This document shows, one piece after another, positions 28,497 to 57,811 of a stretch of DNA of 64,000 nucleotides. Source of the stretch: Rhodoluna sp. (GTDB lineage: Bacteria; Actinomycetota; Actinomycetes; Actinomycetales; Microbacteriaceae). The notes under the pieces are model-generated. The model saw only the letters and a program-made list of their open reading frames with translations, had not been told where the DNA came from and made no database searches. The position numbers and the translations under genes were made by a program. Positions within the stretch are counted from its first letter, which is position 1. Each line of letters starts with the position of its first letter. Location of the stretch: NCBI RefSeq assembly GCF_024639375.1, contig NZ_JAHEIM010000002.1, positions 62,001 through 126,000 on the forward strand, written 5' to 3'.

Positions 28497-28497
28497 C

Positions 28498-28534
28498 GAG
28501 AACCTCATCCTCCACGATGAGGTTTTCTTTTTTA
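28498..28534 (+). terminator. Rho-independent terminator after tRNA-Lys
   Basis: aacctcat-cctccacg-atgaggtt followed by ttcttttttt. Confidence 0.85.
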
Positions 28535-29986
28535 ACGCTCGCGGTGAATTGACTTCATGCGCACATACGCGCCAATGGCCTCTGGGCCATATTCCATGCC
28601 CATGCCGCTGTCTTTCCAGCCACCAAACGGTGCGGCCAGGTTTGAACCGTAGAAGTTGATGCCAACCGAACCAGTTTCGATTCGGTGCGCCAACTTTTCG
28701 GCGCGATCTGGGTCGCTGGTGAAAATCGAACCGCCGAGTCCGAAGGCTGAGTCGTTAGCAATTCGCACTGCATCGTCTTCGTCTTCAAAAGGAATGACCA
28801 CCAATACCGGGCCAAAGATTTCTTCTTGAGCAATGCGCATGCTGTTGTCGACGTTGGCAAACACGGTTGGCTTCACATAGAAACCGCGCTCAATGCCTTC
28901 CGGCATTCCCTCGCCGCCAACGGCTACCTGAGCGCCTTCGGCAATGCCAATGCGAATGTACTCAGCAACGGTGTCGCGCTGGCGACTCGAGGCTGACGGG
29001 CCATAAACGGTGGCCGGGTCAAACGGGTCGCCAATTTTGGTTGCTGCCACAGTTGCAGCCACTGCATCGACGACATCTTTGTAGATGCTTTTTGGTGCCA
29101 GGATGCGGGTTGAGTTGTAGCAAGTTTGGCCAGTGTTGCGCAAACAGGTGCGATTCAAAATGCTGGCAAAATCTTCGAGCTTGGCATCAGGCAGAATGAT
29201 GCTCGCTGACTTACCGCCAAGTTCGAGAGTGACTGGGCGAAGCAATCTTGCAGCCTGTTCGGCAATCGTGCGGCCGGCCCCGGTTGAACCGGTGAAGGCA
29301 ACCTTGGCAACCAACGGGTGCTGCACCAGTAGACCACCGGTTTTTGCATTACCAGTGACTAGGTTGATTACGCCTGCTGGAATACCTGCAGCAACTGATG
29401 CTTCAATGAGAACGCGCAAGTCAAGTGGAGTTTCGGAAGCTGGCTTGATGACCACTGTGCAACCAGCAATCAGTGCCGGCGCAAGCTTCACCATCACAAG
29501 TGTTAGCGGAAAGTTCCAAGGAGCAATCAACACACAAACGCCGCGCGGTTCGCGACGAACTACCGTGTATTTATTTGGCGAACCCGGAAAGTCACGACGA
29601 TCATCTTGGTCGACATAATCAGCCAGCGATGCGTAGTAGCGCAAAATGCCAGCCGAGTGCGAGGCAGCCGACGAGCTTTCAGAAATAGGTGTTCCGTTTT
29701 CTGTGGTGATCATGCGACCCATTGCATCACCACGAGCAGTAAGTTCGTCGGCAAACTTCAACATAATTTCGGCACGCTTGGCTGCGCCGATTTCGCTCCA
29801 CACGCCACTCTTAAAAGCCGCACGTGCAGCTTTTACCGCAGCATCGGCATCGGCCTCATCGCCAACTGGAACCTCGCCCCAGATTTCTTCGGTGGCTGGG
29901 TTGGCAACTCGGTTTCGTTCGGTCGAGTGAGCCTTTACCCACTGACCTCCAATAAAGAGGTCATCGTGGAACTCTTGAAGTTTCAT
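28532..29986 (-). CDS. creC: Aldehyde dehydrogenase, CreC-like (predicted 4-hydroxybenzaldehyde oxidation)
   Basis: ALDH motifs VTLELGGKSASIIL, NTGQTCYNSTRIL, EEIFGPVLVVIPF; last gene of the Cre-like operon. Start moved to MKLQEFHDD. Symbol by family and synteny. Confidence 0.85.
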   Translation of the reverse strand: MKLQEFHDDLFIGGQWVKAHSTERNRVANPATEEIWGEVPVGDEADADAAVKAARAAFKSGVWSEIGAAKRAEIMLKFADELTARGDAMGRMITTENGTPISESSSAASHSAGILRYYASLADYVDQDDRRDFPGSPNKYTVVRREPRGVCVLIAPWNFPLTLVMVKLAPALIAGCTVVIKPASETPLDLRVLIEASVAAGIPAGVINLVTGNAKTGGLLVQHPLVAKVAFTGSTGAGRTIAEQAARLLRPVTLELGGKSASIILPDAKLEDFASILNRTCLRNTGQTCYNSTRILAPKSIYKDVVDAVAATVAATKIGDPFDPATVYGPSASSRQRDTVAEYIRIGIAEGAQVAVGGEGMPEGIERGFYVKPTVFANVDNSMRIAQEEIFGPVLVVIPFEDEDDAVRIANDSAFGLGGSIFTSDPDRAEKLAHRIETGSVGINFYGSNLAAPFGGWKDSGMGMEYGPEAIGAYVRMKSIHRER

Positions 29987-29994
29987 GCTTAGTC

Positions 29995-30639
29995 CTAAAT
30001 AACGTCGAGCTTTAGAAGTTCGATAGAACGCGCCAACTCCGCTGAGGCAAGTGCACGCGCGGTTTCGGTGATCAACTCTGGATAAGTGGTTTCCTGAAGT
30101 TGAATGCGGTACTGGCTTGGAGTCTTTTTGAACCAACCGCTGGCCAAAGCAATGCCAGCAGGAGTAAAGCGCCAGAGTCGGTCTGCGTCACGCACCAGTG
30201 AGTCTTCGATGCTGTAAGACTCCATGCGTGTGTCGTGACCATCGATAATGTCGGTGACGCGCTTGATGGTTTCTTCGTCGTATCCCAAGCCAGGCAACAC
30301 TTCCCGGGCGATGTTGCAGCCCTCTAGTTCGTGAAGTCGACGAATGTCACTCTTGCGCCAATCACCTTGAAAACCCTCGGTGAAAATCTTCGATTCATCG
30401 CAACGAGACCAACCGGTGTCGTGCAACAGAATTGCGGTGCGAGTGACCAGCGGGTCAGCTTCTGGGTGTGCATCCAGAAGAAACTCGGCAAACATCACCG
30501 AAAGCGGAGTGTGAATGTCATTGCCGCGAGAACGCAACGGCTGCTCCACTGCGCGCCACAGGTCATCCAAGTTTGTCCAGGTGCCACTTGGGTTTTTACC
30601 GCCGGCAACAGTGGCGACAGTTTCGATCGTGTAAGACAT
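29995..30639 (-). CDS. creD: HD-domain phosphohydrolase, CreD-like
   Basis: AILLHDTGWSRCDES, DIIDGHDTR, DSLVRDADRLWRFTP. Symbol by synteny; paralog at 33012. Confidence 0.7.
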   Translation of the reverse strand: MSYTIETVATVAGGKNPSGTWTNLDDLWRAVEQPLRSRGNDIHTPLSVMFAEFLLDAHPEADPLVTRTAILLHDTGWSRCDESKIFTEGFQGDWRKSDIRRLHELEGCNIAREVLPGLGYDEETIKRVTDIIDGHDTRMESYSIEDSLVRDADRLWRFTPAGIALASGWFKKTPSQYRIQLQETTYPELITETARALASAELARSIELLKLDVI

Positions 30640-30654
30640 CTTGTTCAACTTTCG

Positions 30655-31890
30655 TTAAGCGGTGACTAGGGTTTTTAGAGCTACCGAAGAATCCGCAGCG
30701 GCATCCGCTGGAATTGTTTGAGCATTGGTGAGGCATTTGCGAACTGCCATGTAATCGGAAACGTGGTTGACCGCATCAACAGCGATGAGTCGACCGTTTT
30801 TGTAATACAAAACACTGAATGAATCTTCATCTGGATTGCCACGTACAACCGTTTGGTCATAACCGGTAGAAAGGCCAGCAATCTGAAGTTTGATGTCGGC
30901 CTGGTCACTCCAGAACCATGGCAACGCGTGGTAGCTCTCGCGCTTGCCCAACAGAGTCTTGGCTGCAACGTGAGCCTGGTCAACCGCATTCTGCACCGAC
31001 TCGAGTCGAACCAAGCCTTCTGAGCCAGTTGGGTTTGGCAACATCACGGCATCGCCGGCTGCAACAACAAGTGGGTTCGAAGTCTGAGCAAATTCATCAA
31101 CCAGAATTGCGCCATTTGCCAACTCGAGACCAAGTAGGTTAGCCACTTCGGTGCGAGCCAGCACACCAATGCCAACCATCACGATTTCAGCTGGAATCAC
31201 TGAGCCATCTTCGAGGGCAACACCACTGACTTTGCCGTTGGCACCTTCGAAGTGACTGATTCGCGCGTTTAGTGTGATCTTCGCGCCGCGACGCTCGTGG
31301 GCGTTCTTGAAGTATTCACTGGTGAATGGGCAAACTGCGCGGGCCATCATGCGATCTGCGCCTTCAAGCACTGTCACATTTTTGCCAGCCTTGGTGGCCA
31401 CTGCAGCAACCTCAAGACCAATGAAACCACCACCGATAACCACGACGTTTTTGGCAGCTTCCCAACGCTCTTTTAGTTTGCGGGCATCTGCCAACGAACG
31501 CATGTAGAGCACACCATCAAGGTCTGAGCCTGCGATCTCCAGCTTGCGTGGGACCGACCCTGGGGTTAGCGCCATGCGATCAAACTCAATGGTCTTGCCC
31601 GAAGCGGTGGTGGCAACACCGCCGTTTTCAGTGGTGCTGATGTTAACCACGGCATCACCCAAAACCAACTCGATGTTGTTGTCGGCATAGAACTTTTGGT
31701 TTCTAAACTCAAGACTCTCTTCATCGGCCTCGCCATAAAGAAATGCCTTCGACAGCGGAGGTCGCTGATATGGAAGTTGACTCTCGTCGCCAATCATCGT
31801 GATTGAACCAGTGAATCCTTCTTCACGAAGGCTGTCGGCAATCTGCATGCCGGCTTGGCCGGCACCAATGATGAGAATTTTGTTTGTCAT
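30655..31890 (-). CDS. creE: FAD/NAD ferredoxin reductase, CreE-like P450 redox partner
   Basis: ILIIGAGQAGMQIADSLREEGF, VVVIGGGFIGLEVAAVATKAGKNVTVLE, VAAGDAVMLPNP. Confidence 0.88.
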   Translation of the reverse strand: MTNKILIIGAGQAGMQIADSLREEGFTGSITMIGDESQLPYQRPPLSKAFLYGEADEESLEFRNQKFYADNNIELVLGDAVVNISTTENGGVATTASGKTIEFDRMALTPGSVPRKLEIAGSDLDGVLYMRSLADARKLKERWEAAKNVVVIGGGFIGLEVAAVATKAGKNVTVLEGADRMMARAVCPFTSEYFKNAHERRGAKITLNARISHFEGANGKVSGVALEDGSVIPAEIVMVGIGVLARTEVANLLGLELANGAILVDEFAQTSNPLVVAAGDAVMLPNPTGSEGLVRLESVQNAVDQAHVAAKTLLGKRESYHALPWFWSDQADIKLQIAGLSTGYDQTVVRGNPDEDSFSVLYYKNGRLIAVDAVNHVSDYMAVRKCLTNAQTIPADAAADSSVALKTLVTA

Positions 31891-31892
31891 GA

Positions 31893-32216
31893 TTAGACCT
31901 GCTTCGGTGCAATCGTTACTCGAAGGCCATCAAAATCTGCACACATCTTGATTTGGCAGCTTAGGCGTGAGTGTTCACGACGATCGGTTACTGCGCCATC
32001 GAGCATGTCATCTTCGACTTCACCCGGGCCACCAACTACGTCTGCAAATTCATCCGCTACAAAAACATGGCAGGTGGCACAGGCGCAAGCGCCGCCACAC
32101 TCGGCAACGATTCCGCGAACACCATTCTTAACTGCAGTCTCCATTACTGAATCGCCATCGCGAGCGTCCAGAGTAGTTTCTGAACCATCCGGAAGGATGT
32201 ATGTGACTTTTGGCAT
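31893..32216 (-). CDS. creF: [2Fe-2S] ferredoxin, CreF-like
   Basis: AECGGACACATCHVFV...RLSCQIKMCADFDGLRV, adrenodoxin/putidaredoxin-type cluster motif. Confidence 0.9.
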   Translation of the reverse strand: MPKVTYILPDGSETTLDARDGDSVMETAVKNGVRGIVAECGGACACATCHVFVADEFADVVGGPGEVEDDMLDGAVTDRREHSRLSCQIKMCADFDGLRVTIAPKQV

Positions 32217-32247
32217 TATGGCTACTTTCTGTTGTGCTTCTGTTTGG

Positions 32248-33009
32248 TTAGATGAATTGCTTGCCGCCGTCGACCACCAGGGTTTGACCCGTGATGAAAT
32301 CGGCTTTGGTTGAAGCTAAAAAGATTGCTGCGCCAACGATGTCTTCTGGTTGACTTGCTCGTTTAAGTGCACCACGGTCTACTCCGTAATTCTCGGCATT
32401 CTCAATGAGTGAGAGACTGGCATCGGTCAAAGTGAACCCCGGGGCAATTGCGTTCACGGTCACACCGCTTGCGCCAACTTCTTTGGCCATCACGCGGGTC
32501 AAACCAATCACCGCGGATTTCGACGCAACGTAGTGCATCCAAAGAGGTGAACCACTGAACACAGTGGCCGAAGCGATGTTCACAATGCGTCCACCCGGTT
32601 GAGTCATCTTTGGGTAGACCGAAGCAGAACATAGCCAAGCACCCTTGACGTTCACGGCCATCACGCGATCCCAGTCGTCTGGGTCGATGTCGGTGAATTT
32701 CTCTCGCTTGATGGTTGCGTAGATTGCTGCGTTGTTCACCAGCACATCGATGCGACCAAAAGCTTTGATTGCCTCTTCGGCAAGGTTGTCGGTTGACTGC
32801 TTCTTAGTGACATCAACCTGAATAGCTTTAGCCTGACCACCTGCAGCTTCAACCAACTTAACGGTTTCTGCTAGGCCAGCCTCTTGCAGGTCAGCCGCAA
32901 TTATCTTGGCGCCCTCGGCCGCAAAGCCCAGGGCAAATTCGCGACCCAAGCCACCGGCCGCGCCGGTGATGATGACTACTTTGTCGTTCAGTTCGAATCC
33001 GACTGCCAT
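32248..33009 (-). CDS. creG: SDR-family oxidoreductase, CreG-like (predicted 4-hydroxybenzyl alcohol dehydrogenase)
   Basis: VVIITGAAGGLGREFALGFA, NNAAIYA, YVASKSAVIGLTRVMAKEV. Confidence 0.82.
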   Translation of the reverse strand: MAVGFELNDKVVIITGAAGGLGREFALGFAAEGAKIIAADLQEAGLAETVKLVEAAGGQAKAIQVDVTKKQSTDNLAEEAIKAFGRIDVLVNNAAIYATIKREKFTDIDPDDWDRVMAVNVKGAWLCSASVYPKMTQPGGRIVNIASATVFSGSPLWMHYVASKSAVIGLTRVMAKEVGASGVTVNAIAPGFTLTDASLSLIENAENYGVDRGALKRASQPEDIVGAAIFLASTKADFITGQTLVVDGGKQFI

Positions 33010-33011
33010 CT

Positions 33012-33713
33012 CTATTCCTTTGGTCGATACGTTTTAGAAAGCTGCGGGGTCTGATCAATGCAAGCCAGGCTCACGAGCACTCGGCTCATGGCGCGACCAG
33101 CATCGGTAAAAAGCTCGTTGTAAGCGCGAAAAGCGCAGAGTCGTAATGACTGCTCATCGTTGAGGCCGAACCAGTCGTTTACAACGCGACGGCCGTGCGG
33201 GGTGACTCGCCAAATTTTGTCGGCGTCTTTCACTAGCGAGTCATTCAAGCTGATCGGTTGCAAGCGCGAATCGTGACCGTCGATGATGTCACAAATCTCA
33301 TCAATGTCTGAGGCAGGCAAACCAACCTCGGTAAGAATGCGTCGAGCAATCTTGGCGCCTTCTTTTTCGTGCTGAATGATCAGGTGAGCTCGTGAGCCGT
33401 CTTTGTCTGGCGCGATGGCCTCAAGGTTTTCGCGCTCGTCAACGGTTGACCAACCGATGTCGTGAATCAGAATTGCTGGCAACACAATGTTTTCTTGTGC
33501 TTCTGGAATCTGCGACAGCAAAGCATTTGCAATGCCATAGGCATACAGGCAGTGTGCGTCATTATCGCGAGTCTTTAGGTAATCCTTGGCAAGCTGCCAA
33601 ATGGCAGCATCACGATCGGTGAGTTGAATTAGCCCAGGCACCATTTCTGGTGCTGGCAATTTAGCCGTGACTTCACGACCTAAGTAATTAACTACTTCGC
33701 GAGATGCTGCCAT
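33012..33713 (-). CDS. Second HD-domain phosphohydrolase of the Cre-like operon
   Basis: AILIHDIGWSTVDE, DIIDGHDSR, DSLVKDADKIWRVTP, paralogous to 29995..30639. Confidence 0.8.
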   Translation of the reverse strand: MAASREVVNYLGREVTAKLPAPEMVPGLIQLTDRDAAIWQLAKDYLKTRDNDAHCLYAYGIANALLSQIPEAQENIVLPAILIHDIGWSTVDERENLEAIAPDKDGSRAHLIIQHEKEGAKIARRILTEVGLPASDIDEICDIIDGHDSRLQPISLNDSLVKDADKIWRVTPHGRRVVNDWFGLNDEQSLRLCAFRAYNELFTDAGRAMSRVLVSLACIDQTPQLSKTYRPKE

Positions 33714-33734
33714 TTGTCTGCTGCTTTCTAGAAA

Positions 33735-35552
33735 TTAACCAATGATTTCGACTGTGCCTGATGATCCGTCAACGCGAAGCATCATGCCTGTCTTAATCTT
33801 TGTTGACGCAGAACCGGTTCCGGTCACGGCTGGCAGGCCGTATTCGCGACAAACGATGGCTGCGTGGCTCATCATGCCGCCGATGTCGGTAACAGTTGCC
33901 TTGATCTTGCCGAATACCGGACCCCATGACGGTGCAGTAACTGGCGCAACGAGGATTTCGCCCTGCTGCAACTGGTCTAACTGTTCTGGGCCGGTGATAA
34001 TGCGGGCGATGCCCTCGACAACACCTGGTGATGCGGCCATGCCCTTCAATTGGTTCGGGTCATCGTCGTCGCTGCCCAACCACTGCGCCACCTGCTCGGT
34101 GGTGATACCCCAAAGCATGATGGTGAATGGCTCGTTGATTTCTGCAGGTGGCTCGTTGAATGCCGGAACCGGACGAGCGGTTGCCAAAGCATCAACGATC
34201 TTGCGGCGGCGTTCGATCTCTTCTGGCCAGTAGCTTGGCGCGATGCAGTCTGCGCCCACTCCCCAACCGGTGGCAAGGTCGAACAACACTGGTCGAACTT
34301 CATCGCGGGTTAGGTACAACATGTCATCTGGGTTGTTCCAGAATCCGTAGCCATGAAGCACTCGGGATAGTTGGCGAACCTTGCGCCAGAACACACCCAT
34401 TGTCCAGTGCTCGATGTAGAAGTTGTGGTCTTCAACGTATGGATAAACAATGCGAGCAAGACCAAGCTTGCCTTCGAATGTTGCCAAAGCCTCTGGGCTC
34501 AACAGTTCGCCGTATTCAGAGACGATTCGGTCACGCTCAACGATTAGGGCATCCTTAGGGCGGTGTAGCTGCTCACCCTTAACCGCACGCGCTACGTAGT
34601 CCTGGATGTATCCCATAGGCAGGTCTAGGTGATCGCGCCAGTAGACGTCTGAACCGTAGAAACCATTGCCCGAGGTGTAGTTGAACCAAGGGTCCTGTGC
34701 GTTGTTCCAAGCGGTAACCCACTCGCGACCCTTTTCGGTCTTAGCAAGCTCAGCAAGAATGTCATCCGCGCCGTTCTTGGTAGCAAATACATCGCCAAGA
34801 CCAAGGTTGCTCGCCAACATTGCCAAGCTCTTGAGTTCATCGTCTGGACGGAATAGAACAGAGTCCACACCCATAACCATCTTGGCAACTGCCAAGTCAG
34901 GAATGTTTGGGAACGATTCTTTACAGAAGCTAAAGAAGTCAAGGTAAGCAACGTAGCCGAGGTTTAGGAACTCGAAGTGGTATTCCCAGTTGCGGTAACA
35001 AAGCTGAATTAGGCGATCGTAGTCAGCCATCATCTTTGCAGTTGGGTCAATGCCCGCACCTGACTCGATGTCGGCCCAATCCACCATCTCTGGCAGTGCC
35101 TTGAATTCGATGGCGTCCATCTCTTCGATGGTTGCGTGAACCTTCTTCTTCCAGTTCTCAAGCAAGCTCTCCCAGTTTTGGAAGTAGTGACCGGCGCGCT
35201 GCAAGAAGTGAGGCACGCGATCTGCAATAAGTTCTGGCGCAACACCAACCGGGCTCATGTAGCAGAAGCCGTTGTGAATGCGGAACTCAATTCCGTTGGC
35301 TGGCGGGATGATGTAGTGACGGGTGTTGTAGGCACCTAGACAGCGAACTGCGTATTCAACACCAATGGTTTCGAATGGCTTGAATACGTTAGGCCAGTGC
35401 TGGCTGTCACAGAACCAAAATTTCTGGTCTTCTTTTTCGCGCAGGTTGTCGCGAAAGACCATGTTGTAGGGGTAAAGCTCTTGCCAACCCTCAGCGCCAG
35501 CCGGTGCAGCTAGATCATATGGGGAGTCAAAACTTTTGCGCTTTTGAGACAT
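33735..35552 (-). CDS. creH: PEP-utilizing-enzyme subunit, CreH-like (alkylphenol phosphorylation)
   Basis: 605 aa; C-terminal swivelling-His domain KATVTDIGGMMSHAAIVCREYGLPAVTGTGSAS; no N-terminal ATP-grasp; adjacent to separate ATP-binding subunit. Confidence 0.85.
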   Translation of the reverse strand: MSQKRKSFDSPYDLAAPAGAEGWQELYPYNMVFRDNLREKEDQKFWFCDSQHWPNVFKPFETIGVEYAVRCLGAYNTRHYIIPPANGIEFRIHNGFCYMSPVGVAPELIADRVPHFLQRAGHYFQNWESLLENWKKKVHATIEEMDAIEFKALPEMVDWADIESGAGIDPTAKMMADYDRLIQLCYRNWEYHFEFLNLGYVAYLDFFSFCKESFPNIPDLAVAKMVMGVDSVLFRPDDELKSLAMLASNLGLGDVFATKNGADDILAELAKTEKGREWVTAWNNAQDPWFNYTSGNGFYGSDVYWRDHLDLPMGYIQDYVARAVKGEQLHRPKDALIVERDRIVSEYGELLSPEALATFEGKLGLARIVYPYVEDHNFYIEHWTMGVFWRKVRQLSRVLHGYGFWNNPDDMLYLTRDEVRPVLFDLATGWGVGADCIAPSYWPEEIERRRKIVDALATARPVPAFNEPPAEINEPFTIMLWGITTEQVAQWLGSDDDDPNQLKGMAASPGVVEGIARIITGPEQLDQLQQGEILVAPVTAPSWGPVFGKIKATVTDIGGMMSHAAIVCREYGLPAVTGTGSASTKIKTGMMLRVDGSSGTVEIIG

Positions 35553-35614
35553 GTCTAATCACTTTCTTAGTTCTCTTCGTTGAGGAGTTGCAGAGTGTTG
35601 TGACGCGATAAGTG

Positions 35615-36697
35615 CTAGCTACCGGTTTTGCCGGCGCGGTCGGTGGATATCTGAGCCATGAGCGAAGTTGTGATCGCTTCAATTCCCGACCCCATTGAGG
35701 TGTACTTCACCTCTGCTGGTTTTTGCGACCAAACGGTTTCAGGGCGTGATTGCAGTAGCAACACGTTTTGACCGTCTGGAAGATCTGCATCGATTGCCCA
35801 TTCGATGTCTTGCACACATCCGTAGTGCTTTTCGGCACTCTTGGCTAGGCGGGCTACAGCAATGATTTCTTCGCTGCTAAGTGATGGCTTGTTTCGGCGA
35901 GCTTCATCAACTTCTTGCTTGATGATGCCGCCCTTGCCATCTGGGATAAGTTCTTCGTGCTTGTCGCTAATGATGGTCTTTACCGGGTGCAACATGATCT
36001 TGTCGATAACGAAGTTGTCTGGAGTGACTTCACCAGAAACCACCATTTCGCCTAGGCCCCAGCTTGAGTCGATAACAATCTTTGAGCGGTCACCGTTGCT
36101 TGGGTCGATGGTCATGGCAACACCAGAGGTGCGTGAGTTCACCATTTTTTGAACGGCAACAGCCATGGACAAACCTTCATCGGCAATGTTGTTTGCCTTG
36201 CGGTAGGTGATTGCACGAGATGTGTAAAGGCTGGCCCAGCACTCGCGAATCTTTTGCATCACATTGTCGCGACCGATAATCCATAGGTAAGTGTCTTGCT
36301 GACCGGCAAATGATGCATCTGGAAGGTCTTCGGCGGTAGCGCTTGAACGAACCGCTACAGGTACCTCGCCACCACACAACTGCATGAGTTCGTCGTAGGC
36401 CTTGTGTGTTTCCTCGTGCACATCTGAAGGAACAGGCTGCTGCATGATCATGTCGCGAATTTTGGCCGATGCCTGGTCTACTGCCGCAACATCATTGATG
36501 TCAATGTTGGCCAGAAGAGCCTCAATGTTTTCGAACAAATCGGTTCCGCGCATCACCTCGTCGTAGGCATCCGTGGTGACTGCAAAACCAGGAGGAACAG
36601 GCGCGCCTGCTTTGGTCATGATGGCGAGGCTGGTGCACTTGCCGCCTAGACGCTCGTGCTGAGGTGTCTCTGCACTGTCGAAAGGGAATGTATACAT
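35615..36697 (-). CDS. creI: PEP-synthase/PPDK N-terminal ATP-binding subunit, CreI-like
   Basis: LGGKCTSLAIMTKAGAPVPPGFAVTTDAY, VAVRSSATAEDLPDASFAGQQDTYL, VQDIEWAIDADLPDGQNVLLLQSRPETVW. Start moved to MYTFPFDS. Confidence 0.87.
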   Translation of the reverse strand: MYTFPFDSAETPQHERLGGKCTSLAIMTKAGAPVPPGFAVTTDAYDEVMRGTDLFENIEALLANIDINDVAAVDQASAKIRDMIMQQPVPSDVHEETHKAYDELMQLCGGEVPVAVRSSATAEDLPDASFAGQQDTYLWIIGRDNVMQKIRECWASLYTSRAITYRKANNIADEGLSMAVAVQKMVNSRTSGVAMTIDPSNGDRSKIVIDSSWGLGEMVVSGEVTPDNFVIDKIMLHPVKTIISDKHEELIPDGKGGIIKQEVDEARRNKPSLSSEEIIAVARLAKSAEKHYGCVQDIEWAIDADLPDGQNVLLLQSRPETVWSQKPAEVKYTSMGSGIEAITTSLMAQISTDRAGKTGS

Positions 36698-36749
36698 CGT
36701 TGTAGGTTTCCTTTTGGTTGAGCTGATTGTGTTGACTAACCCCGAAGGA

Positions 36750-37985
36750 TTAGTTCCATTCCACTGGTACTGCTGTTGGTACTCGGAAGGAGAGATTTTC
36801 TCCAAACTTGATTTCAGTTTCTGGTTTGAGGCGCAGTGAAGGCACATTCTTGGTGATCTCCTCAAGTGCTACTTTTGCCTGCAACTTGGCCAACATGTTG
36901 CCAAGGCAGTAGTGAATGCCATAGCCAAAGGCCAGGTGGTTGCGTGAGTTCTCGCGGTCGATGTTAAAAGCATCTGGTTGATCAAACACGTTCTCGTCGC
37001 GGTTTGCAGAGCCCATGACTAGCAAAATCTCAGATCCCTTTGGAATCTTCACGCCACCGATTTCGCCGTCTTGAACTGCCTTGCGGCGCCAAGCCACGAT
37101 GCTTGGTGAGTAGCGCAAAACTTCATCGATTGCACCAGGGATCTTTTCTGGGTCGGCAACCAACGCTTCGTATGCCACGCGGTGCTGAAGCAAAACACGA
37201 ACGGCGTTTGAGATCAAAGTTGTGGTGGTTTCGTGACCTGCAAAAAGCATGCTGTAAAGCACAGATGCAATTTCGTGGTCGCTGATTTCATCGCCGGCCT
37301 GCTGCAAAGCAACCATGTCTGAAACCAAGTTGTCACCTGGGTTGGCATGAGCATTCGCTACAAGCTCCTGACAGAATGACCAATACTTAACCAAGTTGTG
37401 AGCGTGAGGAATCTGCTCTTCGTCAGTTAGCTCACCCCAGGTGATAACCGCACGGCTAGTAGCCCACGCCTTAACCTCTGGAATCTTTTCAACTGGCACA
37501 CCAAGCAAGGTAAGAATTGTGATTGCCGGAAGTTCGTAAGCGATGTCTGCAAGGATGTCGCCACCGGCATCTCCCTTGGCCAACATTTCGCCAATCATGA
37601 TGTTTGTGTTGTCGCGAATGAAAGGCTCAAGCACTTTGTAGCGGCGAGGAGTAAAAGCCTTTGAAGCAACTGCGCGAATGCGAGTGTGCTCTGGCGGAAT
37701 GCGCGCTGAAAGACCTGAGTAGGCAGTAAAGCCACCGTCATCCATCACCTTCTTGGCTGCCGCACTAATTGGGCGCACCGGAGCCTGGGCATTTTCAGAT
37801 GAGAAGGTTTGCCAGTTTTCAAAAACCGACTTCACGTCGTCATAGCGAGTGACTACGTAGTAGCCAACACGGTCATCAAACATAACCGGCTGCTCTTTGC
37901 GCAACTCTTCGTATGAAGGAAAAGGGTTGTTCATATCGAACGGTTCGAACCCGTGGTATCCAGCTGGGCAAACTGCGTCTGACAT
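36750..37985 (-). CDS. creJ: Cytochrome P450, CreJ-like
   Basis: I-helix LFAGHETTTTLISNAV, ExxR EALVADPEKIPGAIDEVLRYSP, heme loop HLAFGYGIHYCLGNMLAKLQ. Confidence 0.9.
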   Translation of the reverse strand: MSDAVCPAGYHGFEPFDMNNPFPSYEELRKEQPVMFDDRVGYYVVTRYDDVKSVFENWQTFSSENAQAPVRPISAAAKKVMDDGGFTAYSGLSARIPPEHTRIRAVASKAFTPRRYKVLEPFIRDNTNIMIGEMLAKGDAGGDILADIAYELPAITILTLLGVPVEKIPEVKAWATSRAVITWGELTDEEQIPHAHNLVKYWSFCQELVANAHANPGDNLVSDMVALQQAGDEISDHEIASVLYSMLFAGHETTTTLISNAVRVLLQHRVAYEALVADPEKIPGAIDEVLRYSPSIVAWRRKAVQDGEIGGVKIPKGSEILLVMGSANRDENVFDQPDAFNIDRENSRNHLAFGYGIHYCLGNMLAKLQAKVALEEITKNVPSLRLKPETEIKFGENLSFRVPTAVPVEWN

Positions 37986-38026
37986 CTATGTCTCCTCAAA
38001 AGTATTTCGCTTATTGGAATACTTTC

Positions 38027-38040
38027 TCACCGCGAGGTGA
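38027..38040. promoter_or_regulatory. Palindrome upstream of P450 gene, candidate IclR operator (weaker half)
   Basis: TCACC-GCGA-GGTGA within TTCTCACCGCGAGGTGAA. Confidence 0.5.
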
Positions 38041-38052
38041 ACCGGAAACGTA

Positions 38053-38069
38053 TTCTCACTGAGTGAGAT
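38053..38069. promoter_or_regulatory. Palindrome upstream of P450 gene, candidate IclR operator
   Basis: TTCTCACTGAGTGAGAT; TCTCACT-G-AGTGAGA is a perfect inverted repeat. Confidence 0.65.
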
Positions 38070-38094
38070 GAAGTTGCCAATGCGTTATAAACGC

Positions 38095-38877: not shown

Positions 38878-38895
38878 GCCGAAAGAGTATCAGCA

Positions 38896-38912
38896 TTCCC
38901 ATTCAATGGGAA
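38896..38912. promoter_or_regulatory. Palindrome in divergent iclR/DUF1932 promoter region
   Basis: TTCCCAT-TCA-ATGGGAA perfect inverted repeat. Confidence 0.65.
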
Positions 38913-38947
38913 AGGGCATCCGAGCGCATGGCACCTAAACTTTAGCC

Positions 38948-39730: not shown

Positions 39731-39734
39731 GTAG

Positions 39735-41081: not shown

Positions 41082-41095
41082 TTGAAAATCCTCAA

Positions 41096-42202: not shown

Positions 42203-42375
42203 GCCAACTCCTTTGTTGTTTAGGCCGTTGCAAACTATTACAACGCATAAATGTCTCAGATAGATAACGAATCGACATATTTATTTCATCTCTTGAAAAT
42301 AATGCCTAAACTCATCAACAACTCCGTTCTGGAGTGCACCAACTCAAAAAGCTTTGAAAAGAAAGATTGAGACAA

Positions 42376-43692: not shown

Positions 43693-43721
43693 TCACCAAA
43701 TAGTTTGGATGGGCAGGAACA

Positions 43722-47087: not shown

Positions 47088-47144
47088 ATAGGATTCAAAC
47101 GGTCACCAGCCGTTTATGAAATAAAAGATAAAAGGAGAAACAAA

Positions 47145-48599: not shown

Positions 48600-48607
48600 T
48601 CAAAAAC

Positions 48608-48648
48608 AAATTAGCGGGGTCAACTTTTTCGTTGACCCCGCTAATTTT
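48608..48648. terminator. Bidirectional rho-independent terminator
   Basis: aaattagcggggtcaac-tttttc-gttgaccccgctaattt between convergent ALDH and ligC. Confidence 0.95.
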
Positions 48649-48661
48649 TTAAGCTTTTTTG

Positions 48662-49611
48662 TTAGTAAGCCAGCTGTTTCTGAAGCTGGTCAAGCACGAT
48701 GTAGCAAGGCAAAACCTGCGCCACGGATGAATTCGGCTCGCGGCCTTCTTTGATTGCAGCAACGAATTCGCGGTCTTGGAGTTCGATTCCATTCATTGAT
48801 ACATCAACCATGGAAACATCAATTGGCTCTTCTTTGCCGGTGACTAGGTCGTCATAACGAGCAATGTATGTGCCGTTGTCACCGATGTATCTAAAGAAGG
48901 TACCAAGCGGCCCATCGTTGTTGAACGAAAGTGACAGTGTGCAGATTGCGCCATTCTCGGCCTGCAACTGAATCGACATATCCATGGCGATGCCGAGCTC
49001 TGGGTGCTTTGGCCCCTGCACCGCATTTGCCTTCACGATCTTTGAACCGGTTTGGTAGGCAAACAGGTCAACGGTGTGCGCGGCGTGGTGCCACAACAGG
49101 TGGTCTGTCCAAGAGCGTGGCTGACCGAGAGCATTCATGTTGGTGCGTCTAAAGAAGTAAGTCTGAACATCCATCTGCTGAATGTTGAACTCACCTTTTT
49201 GAATCATCTTGTGCAGGTATTGGTGTGATGGGTTGAAGCGACGTGTGTGCCCCGCCATTGCAATCAAACCGGTCTTCTGCTGCAGATCAACAATTTCTTG
49301 AACCCCGGCCAGGTTGTCGGCCATTGGAATTTCAACTTCAACGTGCTTGCCGGCATTCAGGGCCTGCAGGGTCTGGCTGTGGTGCATCTGCGTTGGGGTA
49401 GCAAGAATCACGCCGTCTAGATCTGGCTGCGCCAGCAACTCTGCGTAGTCAGTGAATGCACGCTCGGCGCCGTACTTAGCAGCCACTTCTTCGGCTACCG
49501 GCAGCTTCGAGTGCGCAACGTACTTTATGTTTGCATCTTCAATGTTTGCCAAAGCATCAAGGTGCTTGATACCAAAAGCGCCTAGGCCTACCACAGCGAT
49601 GTTCACAGTCA

Positions 49612-49612
<1 letters not shown>
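48662..49612 (-). CDS. ligC: 4-carboxy-2-hydroxymuconate-6-semialdehyde dehydrogenase (Gfo/Idh/MocA family)
   Basis: VAVVGLGAFGIKHLDALANIEDANIKYVAHS; MAGHTRRFNPSHQYLHKMIQKGEFNIQQMDVQTYFFRRTNMNALGQPRSWTDHLLWHHAAHTVDLF; last gene of lig operon. Confidence 0.92.
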
Positions 49613-50855
<1,243 letters not shown>

Positions 50856-50857
50856 TC

Positions 50858-51745
50858 TTAACTCCAGTAGAGGTTGTTTGGATTCGTGACGAGTAGCTTT
50901 TCTTGCAGTGCTGCGGATGTTGCAATTGATGGAACATAGTCAACAAGGATGCCGTCATCGGGCACCTCTTTTTTCATGTTCGGGTGCGGCCAGTCGGTGC
51001 CCCAGAGCACGCGATCTGAAAATTCTTCAACGATAGCCTTGGCAAACGGCACCACGTCGGCATACAGCGGGGATCCCGAAACGGTTAGGCGGTCTGGGCA
51101 ACTGACCTTGGCCCAAACATCATTTTCACGCATGAACTTTTGGAACAACTGAAAACCAGCGTCATCTAACGGCTTGGTGACATCTGGGCGGCCCATGTGG
51201 TCAACCACAATTGGCACCCCAAGCGAAGTAAAGAACTGCCACTTTTCAATTAGGTCGGCCGGCTCAAAATAAAGCACAACGTGCCAACCAAAAGGCTTGA
51301 TCTTTTCGATGATGCCGCGGAAGTAGTCGTCTGGCTTTGGGTCAACCAGGCGCTTCACATAGTTGAAGCGAACACCGCGAACACCAAGGGCGTGCATGCG
51401 CTCAAGCTCGGCGTGAGTGACATCTGACTTTACGGTAACAACACCACGGGCTTTGTCGTTTGCGTGTTCAAGCACATCTAGCAACGCAGAGTTGTCGGCA
51501 CCGTGACAAGTTGCCTGCACCACCACATTCTTTTCGAAACCCAAAAAATCGCGAAGTGCAAAAAGCTGCTCGCGGCTTGCGTCGCAAGGTGTGTACTTTC
51601 GCTCTGGTGCGAACGGAAAGACATCACCCGGACCAAACACGTGGCAGTGAGCATCTACAGCACCGGCTGGCACCTTGAAACTTGGCTTTGTTGGGTTGGC
51701 ATCCCAGTCAAGCCAATCGGCGTCTTTGACAAACTTTGTGCTCAT
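50858..51745 (-). CDS. ligI: 2-pyrone-4,6-dicarboxylate hydrolase
   Basis: Amidohydrolase: VPAGAVDAHCHVFGPGDVFPFAPERKYTPCDASREQLFALRDFLGFEKNVVVQATCHGADNSALLDVL; GTDWPHPN. Confidence 0.96.
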   Translation of the reverse strand: MSTKFVKDADWLDWDANPTKPSFKVPAGAVDAHCHVFGPGDVFPFAPERKYTPCDASREQLFALRDFLGFEKNVVVQATCHGADNSALLDVLEHANDKARGVVTVKSDVTHAELERMHALGVRGVRFNYVKRLVDPKPDDYFRGIIEKIKPFGWHVVLYFEPADLIEKWQFFTSLGVPIVVDHMGRPDVTKPLDDAGFQLFQKFMRENDVWAKVSCPDRLTVSGSPLYADVVPFAKAIVEEFSDRVLWGTDWPHPNMKKEVPDDGILVDYVPSIATSAALQEKLLVTNPNNLYWS

Positions 51746-52761
51746 CGGCCGACCGCCTCAAGCTTTTTGTTTAGACGCGGGAACACCTTGCGGGTGTTGC
51801 CCTCGAAGATGCTCTTGCGCTCAGCCTCAGAAATCTTGGCGGCATCAATGTAGCGCTTGGTGTCGTCGAAGTACTGGCCGGTAGTTGGGTCGATGCCGCG
51901 AACCGCACCAATCATTTCTGAACCAAACAGAATGTTTTTGTTATCGATCACTTCGACCAACAGATTGATTCCCGGCTGGTGGTAAACGCAGGTGTCAAAG
52001 AAGACGTTGTTCATTAGGTGGCCATCTAGGCTTGGCTTCTTAAGCATGTCGGCCAAACCGCGGTAGCGACCCCAGTGATAAGGAACCGCGCCACCACCGT
52101 GAGGAATGATGAAGCGCAGCGTTGGGAAGTCCTTGAATAGATCGCCTTGAATTAACTGCATGAAAGCAGTGGTGTCGGCGTTCATGTAGTGCGCACCGGT
52201 GGCATGAAAGTTTTCATTGCAGCTGGCAGAAACGTGAATCATCGCTGGCACGTCGAGCTCAACCAGCTTTTCGTAAAGCGGGTACCAATACTTATCGGTA
52301 AGCGGCACGGTCTGCCACATGCCGCCGCTTGGGTCTGGGTTTAGATTGCAGCCGATGAAACCAAGTTCATTCACGCAACGCTCAAGTTCTGCAATCGACT
52401 CGGTCAAATCTGCACGCGGTGATTGCGGCAACTGACACACGCCAACAAAGGTTCCTGGAAAAAGATCAACCACACGCTTAATCAGGTTGTTGCAAGCAAC
52501 CGTCCACTCTTTGCTGATGCGCTGGTCGCCTTCGTGGTGGCCCATCGCTGAGGCGCGTGGCGAAAAGATAGTGAGGTCAGAGCAGCGCTCGTTGATTAGC
52601 TTGAGCTGGTTTTCTTCGATTGATGCACGAATGATTTCATCTGAAATCACCGGATACTCCGGAGTGGGTTGGCCAGCTTTAAACGCGGCTAACTGATCGA
52701 TGCGCCACTGATTGTGCAGCTCGGGCGCCGTTGTGTAGTGGCCGTGGCAGTCAATGATCAT
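51742..52761 (-). CDS. ligJ: 4-oxalomesaconate hydratase (amidohydrolase family)
   Basis: [31 protein letters not shown]...FIIPHGGGAVPYHWGRYRGLADML; between ligI and ligU. Confidence 0.94.
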   Translation of the reverse strand: MIIDCHGHYTTAPELHNQWRIDQLAAFKAGQPTPEYPVISDEIIRASIEENQLKLINERCSDLTIFSPRASAMGHHEGDQRISKEWTVACNNLIKRVVDLFPGTFVGVCQLPQSPRADLTESIAELERCVNELGFIGCNLNPDPSGGMWQTVPLTDKYWYPLYEKLVELDVPAMIHVSASCNENFHATGAHYMNADTTAFMQLIQGDLFKDFPTLRFIIPHGGGAVPYHWGRYRGLADMLKKPSLDGHLMNNVFFDTCVYHQPGINLLVEVIDNKNILFGSEMIGAVRGIDPTTGQYFDDTKRYIDAAKISEAERKSIFEGNTRKVFPRLNKKLEAVGR

Positions 52762-53858
52762 TTGTTCTCCCAAGTTGATTTAGGCACAAAAACACTGCCT
52801 TGCATAAGCATTCGCGCGGTTCGCAAAAGTGCAGATTTTGTAATTTTTAGCTCGGCCCCAGAGCTATCGACTTCCATTTGAACCGTGAAGAAGCCGGTTG
52901 GGTGTTCGACTTCAATGTCTTGTGCCCCACTGCCCGGTGCAACGCCTGTGATCTTTTGAGCAATACTGCCCTCAAGAATGCAGGCGGTAGCAACCGAAAC
53001 AGCGCCAAGCACACCAATTGCCTCGTGAGCGCGGTGTGGAATAAAGGTGCGTGTGCTGATCAGCCCGCCATCTTTAGCCTTGGCCAAGAGCGACATCTTT
53101 GGCACTGTTTTGTTAGTGACATCGCCCAGGTTCATGAGTGGGCCAACCGCCAAGCGAATTGCCTCAACTTTGGAACGCAATTCTTGGTTGGCCTCGAGTT
53201 CAGCCGGAGTCTCGTAGCCGGTGATGCCAAAGTCGCTGGCATTCAAGCAAACCACCGGCATGCCGTTGTCGATGCAGGTGACCTCGACCCCATTCACAAC
53301 ATCCACCACGTTGCCGGTTGGCAAAAGTGCGCCGGTGCTTGAGCCGGCGACATCCTCGAAATTAATGTTTACCGATGCGTGCGTACCCGGCACACCATCG
53401 ATGCGCGCATTGCCCTGATAGTTGACCAAGCCGTTTGGAGTTTCAACAAACGCAGTTGCCTTCGAATCGGTGTTGACCATAAAAATCGAAACCGGGGTCA
53501 GATCCCCGGTCGCAGCAACTAGACCCTTTTCAATAGCAAACGGGCCAACGCCAGCCAAGATATTGCCGCAGTTTTGTTGGTCACTAACTTCGGCTCTATC
53601 TGGCCAAACTTGCAAGAACAAATAGTCAACGTCAATGCCCTCGCGGTTTGACTTGCTAACCACTGCAACTTTGGAAGTTAGCGGGTGACCGCCACCCATG
53701 CCGTCAATTTCACGCTCATCGGGTGAACCCATCGCAGCAAGCAATACCTTGTCGCGGGTAGCTGTGTCGGCAGGCAAATCCGAGGCCAAAAAATATAAAC
53801 CTTTGGATGTGCCACCGCGCATAACCGCGCAATCGATTGCTAACTGCGAGTTGGTCAT
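52758..53858 (-). CDS. ligU: 4-oxalomesaconate tautomerase (PrpF-like, LigU/GalD)
   Basis: [50 protein letters not shown]. Confidence 0.92.
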
Positions 53859-54535
53859 TCTGAGTAGTCCTCGTAGACCAATCCCTTTTTAGCCAAAGCA
53901 TCGCGCATGTTGTAAATGTCTAGACCTAGTTCACCTGATGCGAGTCGAGCACGCTTTGCAGTTTCGTTTGCTTCGCGGGCGCGTGCTTTTTCAAGCACCT
54001 CGGCCGCATCCTCGCGACGAACCACACAAACGCCATCAACATCGGCCACAATCACATCGCCCGGGCGAACTGCCTGGTTGGCAATCACGATTGGAACCTG
54101 CACGTTTCCCGGTGTCTCTTTAACCGTGCCCTGAGATGCAATCACCTTTGGCCAAACTGGAAAACCCATTTCGGTGAGAGTGGCAACATCGCGAACACCT
54201 GCGTCGATGATCAATCCGCGCACGCCGTGAGCCATCAGGCTCTCGGCAAGCAGGTCACCAAGGTAGCCATCGTCACACGGGCTGGTTGGCGTAACCACCA
54301 GGATGTCGCCTGGCTGGGCCTGCTCTACCGCCACGTGAATCGTCCAGTTGTCACCCGGCGCGACCTCACAGGTGAGTGCGTTGCCCGCGATTTTGGCCGG
54401 AAAGATTGGACGCAGTCGGTGGTCTAGTAGACCAATGCGACCCTGCGCTTCGTGCACTGTAGCAACACCCATCTCGGCCAAGCCATCAACAATGGCCAGG
54501 TCGGTGCGAGGGGTTCCACGAACTACTCTTGGCAT
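53855..54535 (-). CDS. ligK: 4-carboxy-4-hydroxy-2-oxoadipate aldolase (RraA-like)
   Basis: [79 protein letters not shown]. Confidence 0.94.
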
Positions 54536-54542
54536 TATTTTC

Positions 54543-55703
54543 CTAACGAATTCCTACGTAGTTTTCTGCAAGATTAGTCTGTAGTGCTTTGTTCTTGAAT
54601 AGGTGCTTCAACTGCGATAGCTGCAATTGGTTGTCAAACTCGTCGCCCATGGTGTGCAACATGCTAGTCATCCACCATGAGAAGTGTGTCACGCGCCAGA
54701 CGGTCTCTTTAGCGCGATCTTCGTAGGCATTCAAAAGGTTCGCATCGTTCTTCTTGAAGAAGTCAACTAGACCCTCGCCCAAGAAGCGCACGTCGTTAGC
54801 GGCAGAGTTCAAACCCTTTGCGCCAGTTGGCGGCACGATGTGGCCGGCGTCGCCAACCAAGAACAAACGTCCGTGCTTCAACTTTCCAGAAACGAACGAA
54901 CGCATTGCAACAATGCTCTTTTCGGTGATTGGGCCAGTCTTTAGCTCCCAGCCATCAACCGCCATGCGCTTTGAAAGCTCTGACCAAATTCGGTCATCTG
55001 ACCAGTTAGCGATGTCATCTTTAGGGTCAACCTGCAAATACAAGCGACTAACTTTGTCTGATCGCATCGAGTGCATTGCAAAACCATCTGGGTGGCGAGC
55101 ATAAATCAACTCGTCGGTTGACGGCGCAACATCGGCCATCACACCAAGCCAGCCGAATGGATAAACGCGCTCGAAGCTGCCGACCTCAACGCCAGGGATT
55201 GACTTGCGAGAAGGACCCCAGAAGCCATCGCAACCTGCGATAACGGCACACTCGATTTTTTGTGCGTTGCCATCTTTGTCAACGAAAGTGACTGAAGGGT
55301 TCTCTGAGTCGGTGTTGTGCAGTTCTACGTTGGTTACTTCGTAGTGAATCTCTTGACCGGCGGCATCGCAAGCGTGATCTAGGTCACGCTGAATTTCGGT
55401 CTGACCATAAACCCAAACGGTGTAGCCAATTAGGTCTTTGAAGTTGATGTGCTTGCGCTCACCAGGAATCTGAAGGTAGATACCTTCGTGCTCAAGGCCC
55501 TCTTTCTTTAGGCGATCAGAAACGCCAATTTCTTCGAGAAGGTTTACCGCTTGGGTCTCCAATAGACCGGCACGAATACGAGATTCAACATAGTCACGTG
55601 ATCGGTCTTCGATAACGATTGACTCGATGCCGTGCTTGGCTAGATAACGGTTGAGCATAAGTCCCGATGGGCCAGCTCCGATGATGGCTACTTGAGTTTT
55701 CAT
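54543..55703 (-). CDS. pobA: 4-hydroxybenzoate 3-monooxygenase
   Basis: [75 protein letters not shown]; start moved to MKTQV. Confidence 0.97.
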
Positions 55704-55744
55704 AGTCTTTAGAAAACACCAATATCGGAGGTCCCGCACAAATC

Positions 55745-55761
55745 CTTCCGGTGAGCGGAAG
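55745..55761. promoter_or_regulatory. Palindromic candidate IclR operator upstream of pobA operon
   Basis: CTTCCG-GTGAG-CGGAAG perfect inverted repeat, repeated at 56572. Confidence 0.75.
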
Positions 55762-55780
55762 ACCGTTATCGAAAGGTTAT

Positions 55781-56557
55781 CTAAGGTGCGCTAAGGCTGC
55801 CTACACCGCTGAGAATCAACTTCTTTGAAAGCGCGCTAGCCGATACCTTTAGCACCGCAACCATTCGTTCAATGTCGCGGTTAGCCACCGGAGTCACTAA
55901 TCCGAGGGCAGCAATCACTCGGTTGCCATAGCCGTAAATTGGCACCCCAATCGACGTGGCACCCATCGCCAGCTCCTCTTCTGAATGAGCAAACCCTTGG
56001 GTCTTGATTATTTTTAGTTGCTTCTTGAGGTCGGCCTCGTCGGTGATGGTCTTGGTGGTGTACTTATCCAAAGATTTGATTGCTGCATCTTGCAATTCTT
56101 TTGAGCCAAAGGCCATCAAAACTTTGCCCACTGCAGTGGCGTGCAAGGGCAAGCGCGCACCGGGCTTGCTCACTACTTCGAGAGTGCGCGAGCCGGCGAT
56201 GCGCTCAACGATCAAACAACGCACTCCATCGAGTACACCAATCTGCACGGCGTCGTTGGCGATTTGATAAATGTCTTCCATGTAGGGCAACGCCACTTCG
56301 CGAAGGTCAGAGTGCAGCGAGGCAAGCAGCCCCAGGCGCCACATTTTGCTGCCAATTTCATAGGCCCCATCGGATGTTCGAATCAGTGCGCCTTGGGCGG
56401 TGAGTTCGTGAACCAACCGGTGCACGGTAGTTAGTGGAAGGCCTGATCGACGGGCGATTGCAGCAAGTGTTTGGTGGCGATGACTCGCGTCAAAGGCATC
56501 GAGCACCGAGAAGGCTCGGCCAGTCACCGACTTTTGATCTAGCTCTGCTTTGGCCAC
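55781..56557 (-). CDS. IclR family transcriptional regulator of the pobA-lig operon
   Basis: SVLDAFDASHRHQTLAAIARRSGLPLTTVHRLVHELTAQGAL; LPLHATAVGKVLMAFGSKE. Confidence 0.93.
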   Translation of the reverse strand: MAKAELDQKSVTGRAFSVLDAFDASHRHQTLAAIARRSGLPLTTVHRLVHELTAQGALIRTSDGAYEIGSKMWRLGLLASLHSDLREVALPYMEDIYQIANDAVQIGVLDGVRCLIVERIAGSRTLEVVSKPGARLPLHATAVGKVLMAFGSKELQDAAIKSLDKYTTKTITDEADLKKQLKIIKTQGFAHSEEELAMGATSIGVPIYGYGNRVIAALGLVTPVANRDIERMVAVLKVSASALSKKLILSGVGSLSAP

Positions 56558-56571
56558 AGACCAATAATGGG

Positions 56572-56588
56572 CTTCCGAAGAGCGGAAG
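56572..56588. promoter_or_regulatory. Palindromic candidate IclR operator upstream of iclR
   Basis: CTTCCG-AAGAG-CGGAAG, same half-sites and spacing as 55745-55761. Confidence 0.75.
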
Positions 56589-56602
56589 TCAATTGCACTG
56601 GC

Positions 56603-57811
56603 TTAATTGACGAGTGATTTGTCTTTTGGCAAAAACAGCGAAGTAATAAAGATGTAGCCGGCAAGCAAAACACCGAACCACAAAGTGATGTTGAGTGGAG
56701 CTAGCGATGAAACCCAACCAATGATTGCCGGGCCACCCAGCATGGCCGCGTAGCAAAGACCAAAAACCATTGCCATGTTTCGACCCGAGTGTGACTCTTC
56801 ACCAACACCCGCCGAGTAGGCAAAGATCTGCGGCACCACCGCGGATATTCCGAGGCCGGCCACCAGCCATCCGATGATTGAAATTTCGAAAACGGTTTGC
56901 GAGATTGCAAAACCAACACCCACTGCCGCAATTGCAGCGCCGTAGCGAATCACTGGAATTCGACCGAGCTTGCCAACGACTTTGTCAGCTAAGAATCTGA
57001 AGCCTGCCATCGCCGCTGAGAAAACCGTCACCGAAATAGCAGCTTGCGATGCTGACACATTGAGAATGCCAACCCCAAACAACGCAGACCAGTCGAGTCC
57101 GATGCCTTCGATGAGCGCGCCCGAACCCGCCATGATGCCAAGTGCAACAACGAGTTTTAGGTAAGGGCGATTCGCTGCATTTTGAAGTTTGGCTTGCGCC
57201 TTGAGTTCTTGCTTGCTTTGTTTGGCTACCTCGGATTGCTGCGACTGCACCTTTGGCAGGAACCAGTTGTTGGCAACGGCAACCATGATTAGCCCGAGCG
57301 CGCCGATTGCCGAAAGCGTGACGACCATTGGCCACCCGGCGGCAAGTGCAGCGCCGCCTAGTGTGGCACCAATTACACAACCAATAGACCAATACGCGTG
57401 AAAGGCGCTGAAGATAGGTCGGTTGTAGCGTTTTTCAAGCTCTACCGCTTGAGCGTTCATCGACACATCGGTGGCACTCAGAAAAAATCCGAACACAAAT
57501 AGCGCAGCGCACAGTGTGTAAACGTTTGTGGCCAGGCCAGGCAGAATCACCGCCACAGATGTGCAGATGCCTGCCAAAACGGTGCCAAATTTGCTGCCAC
57601 GTTTGTCAACAATGTGACCCATGAACTGCATAGAGGTCACAGCGCCAAGACCGAGCATCATGATGACCCAGCCCACTTGGGCATTTGAAAGATCAAAACG
57701 CTCTTTCACAACTGGAATATGCACAGCCCATGCTGTTGTTGCCGCACCCGTGAAGACAAAGAAGAATGTCACGGCTAGGCGGGCACGAACATCCGCGGTG
57801 AATTTGTTCAT
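56603..57811 (-). CDS. MFS transporter
   Basis: 12-TM pattern; GWVIMMLGLGAVTSMQFMGHIVDKRGSKFG MFS loop. Confidence 0.9.
   Translation of the reverse strand: MNKFTADVRARLAVTFFFVFTGAATTAWAVHIPVVKERFDLSNAQVGWVIMMLGLGAVTSMQFMGHIVDKRGSKFGTVLAGICTSVAVILPGLATNVYTLCAALFVFGFFLSATDVSMNAQAVELEKRYNRPIFSAFHAYWSIGCVIGATLGGAALAAGWPMVVTLSAIGALGLIMVAVANNWFLPKVQSQQSEVAKQSKQELKAQAKLQNAANRPYLKLVVALGIMAGSGALIEGIGLDWSALFGVGILNVSASQAAISVTVFSAAMAGFRFLADKVVGKLGRIPVIRYGAAIAAVGVGFAISQTVFEISIIGWLVAGLGISAVVPQIFAYSAGVGEESHSGRNMAMVFGLCYAAMLGGPAIIGWVSSLAPLNITLWFGVLLAGYIFITSLFLPKDKSLVN

Follow-up and report, generated by a model that had tools for sequence, protein, structure and literature searches.

Within the window analysed here, a stretch of 64,000 nucleotides from a Rhodoluna sp. 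(contig NZ_JAHEIM010000002.1, positions 62,001 to 126,000), positions 28532-57811 form a real and coherent catabolic island that is built as a variant of known pathways and not as a separate kind of system. Judging from its genes, this modular island would very probably let a streamlined planktonic actinobacterium use p-cresol as a carbon source. Three blocks follow each other from left to right: cre (28532-38877, minus strand), a mixed middle block (38948-48599) and lig (48662-57811, minus strand). An original prediction, made from the DNA alone, had described a single chain of about 29 kb leading from a Cre funnel through PobA to LigABCIJUK. Its named genes are present as intact open reading frames throughout, in the families it had given, and homology, gene order and intact motifs uphold the assignment at each step. 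The cre and lig ends bear out the chain, while the middle block of about 9.7 kb lies outside it.

In the proposed pathway, CreHI would transfer phosphate from ATP, through a phosphohistidine, onto p-cresol, and CreJ would hydroxylate the methyl group of the phosphoester with electrons from CreE and CreF. Phosphate would be removed by CreD, possibly aided by a second HD-domain protein, and the alcohol and then the aldehyde would be oxidised to 4-hydroxybenzoate by CreG and CreC (or a second aldehyde dehydrogenase). PobA would convert 4-hydroxybenzoate to protocatechuate, LigAB would open the ring at 4,5, and LigC, LigI, LigU, LigJ and LigK would yield pyruvate and oxaloacetate. As a genomic prediction, no step between p-cresol and the end products pyruvate and oxaloacetate lacks a gene. 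From the gene set and its homologies we infer the substrate, the enzyme activities and the regulation of the island by IclR proteins.

The Cre module

The genes of the cre block are as follows; identities are to a Corynebacterium cre cluster with the same gene order, whose CreJ is 96% identical to the solved structure 5XJN.

28532-29986 (open reading frame to 30136), minus: CreC-like aldehyde dehydrogenase, predicted to convert 4-hydroxybenzaldehyde to 4-hydroxybenzoate (Aldedh; last in the conserved cre order; 50%)
29995-30648, minus: CreD-like HD-domain phosphohydrolase (same position; motif intact; 52%)
30655-31890, minus: CreE-like ferredoxin reductase (domain match; 49%)
31893-32216, minus: CreF-like 2Fe-2S ferredoxin (domain match; 57%)
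32248-33009, minus: CreG-like short-chain dehydrogenase/reductase, predicted 4-hydroxybenzyl alcohol dehydrogenase (domain match; 61%)
33012-33713, minus: second HD-domain phosphohydrolase (metal motif intact)
33735-35552, minus: CreH-like swivel/phenol-binding subunit, 605 residues (catalytic motif TDIGGMMSH; 64%)
35615-36697 (open reading frame to 36865), minus: CreI-like ATP-grasp subunit (PPDK_N; 56%)
36750-37985, minus: CreJ-like cytochrome P450 (64% to 5XJN over 404 aligned residues; 65%)
38095-38877, minus: IclR regulator of the cre module in a CreR-like position (domain and position; 44%)

The longest open reading frames of CreI and CreC run over upstream genes, and the starts therefore lie probably near 36697 for CreI and likely near 29986 for CreC. 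Published naming gives CreH to the swivel/His protein and CreI to the ATP-grasp protein (PMC12167813, PMC7764795), and CreE is the reductase and CreF the ferredoxin (PMC9549646). The Corynebacterium glutamicum cluster (creC-J, cg0637-cg0645) runs from the creC aldehyde dehydrogenase and creD phosphohydrolase through creE/F, creG, creH and creI to creJ (PMC7764795). The window shares its eight enzymes, their order and the upstream IclR gene, at 49-65% identity to the Corynebacterium cluster for the enzymes, and differs in that an additional gene for an HD hydrolase separates creH from creG. This second HD gene occurs in 41 of 63 testable cre loci and is not found in the Corynebacterium cre clusters examined.

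The best solved relatives of the P450 in a PDB search are CreJ 5XJN and 5GWE (604-605 bits), whereas the next P450 family reaches 254 bits. A CreH tree of 86 rows puts the window together with Aurantimicrobium minutum MWH-Mo2, where cre and lig are likewise contiguous; the two belong to a well supported group of 16 sequences, every one actinobacterial and most from freshwater Microbacteriaceae. That group is sister, inside the Cre clade, to one holding Corynebacterium and Arthrobacter, and paralogues of 45-47% identity fall far from the window CreH. P450 and kinase pair are both of Cre type, as the original prediction had it. The CreH motif, [TS]xxGGxxxH with a Ser preceding the His (PMC12167813), is retained as TxxGGxxxH with that Ser; CreJ retains its heme and ExxR motifs and both HD proteins their metal motifs. 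Membership in the Cre p-cresol pathway is marked here by a CreJ-orthologous P450 and a Cre-clade CreHI dikinase with a phosphohistidine motif, accompanied by HD phosphohydrolase, short-chain dehydrogenase, aldehyde dehydrogenase, ferredoxin and reductase in cre order. A PDB search with both HD proteins gave no matches, and a promoter scan upstream of creJ gave no signal beyond chance.

Outside support for p-cresol as the Cre substrate comes from Rhodococcus oxybenzonivorans plasmid pRB98 (L149:1961-16305), where toluene monooxygenase genes annotated as toluene-4-monooxygenase type lie directly upstream of cre. Such an enzyme would supply p-cresol, which suggests a route on pRB98 from toluene through p-cresol to 4-hydroxybenzoate. 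Additionally, Bacteroidota carry complete or near-complete cre clusters (L039, L052, L066, L069, L076); therefore, the pathway has crossed phyla.

The Lig module

The lig block holds a protocatechuate 4,5-cleavage set together with pobA, a regulator and a transporter.

48662-49612, minus: LigC, 4-carboxy-2-hydroxymuconate-6-semialdehyde dehydrogenase (GFO_IDH_MocA; conserved lig position)
49612-50457, minus: LigB (PF02900; NF009903 above cut-off)
50457-50855, minus: LigA (TIGR02792 above cut-off)
50858-51745, minus: LigI, 2-pyrone-4,6-dicarboxylate hydrolase (best PDB match 4D8L, 332 bits)
51742-52773, minus: LigJ, 4-oxalomesaconate hydratase (best PDB match 6DWV, 613 bits)
52758-53858, minus: LigU, 4-oxalomesaconate tautomerase (NF033377, 533 bits, cut-off 440)
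53855-54535, minus: LigK, 4-carboxy-4-hydroxy-2-oxoadipate aldolase (TIGR02798 and NF006731 above cut-off)
54543-55739, minus: PobA, 4-hydroxybenzoate 3-monooxygenase (NF006091, 534 bits, cut-off 351)
55781-56557, minus: IclR regulator of the lig module (domain and lig-linked position)
56603-57811, minus: major facilitator superfamily transporter, weakly like aromatic-acid symporters (family match)

By these models a class III LigA/LigB dioxygenase is present, together with LigC, LigI, LigU, LigJ and LigK. The solved hydrolase and hydratase that match LigI and LigJ are the Sphingobium enzymes. The genome of the window gave no match to an intradiol dioxygenase (PF00775; PcaGH) in a search that was positive in C. 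glutamicum, and so lacks a detectable 3,4-cleavage (beta-ketoadipate) entry, consistent with the 4,5-cleavage route of the original prediction. Outside the actinobacterial group, the closest LigJ proteins belong to sphingomonads and other alphaproteobacteria (74-75%), whereas the few other sampled actinobacteria outside the family that have one reach 56-69%. This difference suggests, without proof, that the lig genes are of alphaproteobacterial origin.

Catalytic motifs of the island proteins are intact in comparison with homologue alignments. At columns conserved in ≥97% of homologues, CreH, CreI, CreJ, CreD, CreG, CreF, LigB and LigK of the window show 0-2 departures, and CreE, LigC, LigI, LigJ and LigU show 4-7.

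Each half of the island resembles a known system and differs from it. C. glutamicum Cre feeds the 3,4 (ortho) route, whereas the Cre enzymes of the window would feed 4,5-cleavage with the whole pathway in one island. Sphingobium SYK-6 has the same LigABCIJUK enzymes with LigA and LigB separate, but sphingomonad lig genes are split and LysR-linked, while the window has a single ligK-U-J-I-A-B-C block with pobA and IclR. Protocatechuate 4,5-dioxygenases are reported to be almost exclusively proteobacterial, the actinobacterial exceptions being the fused enzymes of Arthrobacter and Pseudarthrobacter (PMC8431788). In Arthrobacter keyseri 12B and Pseudarthrobacter phenanthrenivorans Sphe3, 4,5-cleavage is likewise encoded in one operon (Pcm/Pca; PMC8431788), but with a fused single-subunit dioxygenase and a LysR-type regulator in place of two subunits and IclR. 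The Rhodococcus aph genomic island also carries alkylphenol catabolism by meta-cleavage (PMC6710988); there AphAB hydroxylates the ring to give a 4-alkylcatechol, unlike the window in using neither phosphorylation nor protocatechuate.

Middle block and hot spot

The genes between cre and lig, and the tRNA gene at the left edge of the island, are listed below.

28423-28497, plus: tRNA-Lys(ttt) (left island edge; same hot spot in congeners)
38948-39730, plus: DUF1932 NAD-binding dehydrogenase-like protein (family; elsewhere adjoins ligC)
39735-41081, minus: ROK-family regulator/kinase-like protein (family)
41096-42202, minus: zinc alcohol dehydrogenase (family)
42367-47087, plus: branched-chain amino acid-type ABC importer with a binding protein, two ATPases and two permeases (families)
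47145-48599, plus: second aldehyde dehydrogenase (best solved relatives 4-hydroxybenzaldehyde dehydrogenase 9JW2 and benzaldehyde dehydrogenase 3R64)

Because its nearest solved structures are dehydrogenases of 4-hydroxybenzaldehyde and benzaldehyde, the second aldehyde dehydrogenase may duplicate the CreC step or serve as a funnel for another aromatic aldehyde. The binding protein of the importer has weak solved relatives only in a PDB search, and a Kaistia cre cluster also adjoins a homologous importer and aldehyde dehydrogenase. The DUF1932 gene recurs close to ligC in Aurantimicrobium, Alpinimonas, Pseudarthrobacter and a congener of the window (G022), and sphingomonad lig clusters hold a distant homologue.

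The original prediction had read the genes of the island correctly and missed that tRNA-Lys marks a hypervariable hot spot. Across 67 genomes of the genus, about 1.3 Mb in size, full-length CreH occurs in this genome only and LigA in one further genome, G022. In nine congeners a single contig holds both the EamA gene of the left flank and galT of the right flank, with 11-32 kb between them. Each of these has tRNA-Lys within the interval, whose contents are mostly unshared; transporters, sugar kinases and arabinose isomerase are among them. At the same hot spot G022 has lig, pobA, IclR, the transporter and DUF1932 without cre, at 55-89% identity to the window except for DUF1932 (49%). The lig module is separable from the cre module. 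Flexible islands beside tRNA-Lys are known from other streamlined freshwater bacteria (PMC10872708). Aromatics go unmentioned in a published comparison of the Luna-1 subcluster, to which related genera with small genomes belong (PMC12422013).

Most likely, the island came together through horizontal transfer at this tRNA-Lys/galT hot spot. Insertion into the tRNA gene by an integrase was rejected, since no integrase or recombinase was found among the annotated island open reading frames and a direct-repeat search found no second copy of the tRNA-Lys 3' end within the 64-kb window. A contaminant or chimeric contig was also rejected, because G+C content is 0.50-0.55 across the island without a shift and the genes on either flank keep their synteny in congeners.

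Recurrence of the pairing and alternative readings

To the original prediction the pairing of Cre with Lig was not a textbook arrangement, which is fair, but other loci share it: among deposited genomes, those of Aurantimicrobium, Microbacterium ihumii and further Microbacteriaceae have it too. Among 400 Microbacteriaceae genomes, Cre-type CreH occurs in 28 and LigA in 25, and 20 of the 28 Cre-positive genomes have both (1.75 expected), which answers the co-occurrence check that the prediction had proposed for creHI and ligAB. LigA is also found in 16 of 41 other cre-carrying genomes. In eight other genomes with both genes on one contig, including Aurantimicrobium and its kin, creH and ligA lie 12-42 kb apart. 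Median genome size is 1.7 Mb with cre and lig, versus 3.3 Mb with cre only. In LigB trees, 11 two-subunit actinobacterial sequences form a fully supported group, with a separate fused type in Microbacterium, and M. ihumii has the fused-type LigAB beside cre. Since two different LigAB lineages lie beside cre, the coupling probably arose at least twice. Between the lig and cre genes of A. minutum MWH-Tana7 (L098/L102), at about 9.1-10.2 kb of L102, there is a second LigAB-like pair, which is divergent (39%, 51%) and possibly another extradiol dioxygenase, e.g. of gallate type. A search of the open-access literature, including Aurantimicrobium with protocatechuate and cresol with Microbacteriaceae, found no description of Cre coupled to Lig; because it covered open-access sources only, we claim no more than weakly that the pairing is newly described here.

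The kinase pair might instead be part of a pathway for hydroxyphenylethanone (Hpe) or for phenol (Pps), as HpeHI and PpsAB are two-component dikinases homologous to CreHI, at about 40-46% identity (PMC9618137, PMC12167813). In the Hpe layout HpeHI adjoins the biotin-dependent carboxylase HpeCBA (PMC9618137), and one CreH paralogue indeed clusters with biotin carboxyl carrier, biotin carboxylase, carboxyltransferase and HAD phosphatase genes. The window pair is instead accompanied by CreJ-E-F-D-G-C, with no carboxylase gene among the island open reading frames, and its CreH groups with that of Corynebacterium, apart from the Hpe-type clusters with their biotin carboxylase genes. Because CreH falls in the Cre clade and the Hpe layout belongs to a distant paralogue, we rejected an Hpe (acetovanillone) or phenol-kinase origin, which is very improbable, and assign the window to Cre. 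Hpe-type clusters do exist in Microbacteriaceae such as Alpinimonas, besides cre and lig (L129:8591-16013), and paralogues also occur in G152, G222, G277, G310, G199, G251, G354 and G391.

Whether cre and lig are neighbours merely by chance, with lig serving 4-hydroxybenzoate or other protocatechuate sources and cre detoxifying alkylphenols, is a separate matter. The lig-only congener at the same hot spot, the several genomes with the modules on different contigs and the separate IclR regulator of each module speak for it. Yet the Cre end product is 4-hydroxybenzoate and PobA lies within the lig operon, the genome has no intradiol-type ring-cleavage enzyme for protocatechuate elsewhere, and the pairing recurs with two different LigAB lineages, so that we regard chance as quite unlikely. 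It is rather unlikely that a larger or otherwise different alkylphenol (e.g. 4-ethylphenol or 4-propylphenol) serves as the natural substrate. The Cre oxidation system has been applied to various alkylphenols (PMC9549646), but formation of 4-hydroxybenzoate via CreG and CreC needs a one-carbon side chain, and the island also encodes PobA.

Several points weigh against a p-cresol island. PobA scores 482 bits with TIGR02360, under the stricter cut-off of 539, and LigC, which matches no equivalog model, was assigned by family, size, position and synteny. The absence of pcaGH is strong but not absolute, the genome being a 94% complete draft, and the middle block is only a candidate part of the pathway. 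At genus level both modules occur in 8 genera (13 cre genera and 11 lig genera, of 85; Fisher 4e-6), so that 8 of the 11 lig genera pair with cre; the co-occurrence p-values take no account of shared ancestry. Lastly, p-cresol use is a prediction from genes.

A wider reading is possible, and we offer it tentatively. Freshwater Microbacteriaceae may have repeatedly joined 4,5-cleavage genes of alphaproteobacterial type to the Cre funnel, giving a compact p-cresol-to-central-metabolism unit passed between streamlined genomes via flexible islands at tRNA-Lys. In that case, the second HD hydrolase and DUF1932 might be undescribed pathway components, e.g. dephosphorylating a later intermediate (phospho-hydroxybenzaldehyde or phospho-hydroxybenzoate).

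Judged by the gene content of the island, planktonic actinobacteria that are very small and streamlined can hold a predicted full pathway for breaking down a toxic phenol within one small hot spot, and Cre chemistry would not be bound to ortho cleavage. The island adds two conserved genes outside the textbook scheme, the second HD hydrolase and DUF1932, and makes a testable prediction for cultured Aurantimicrobium strains. The same genes would also offer a compact enzyme set for converting lignin phenols.

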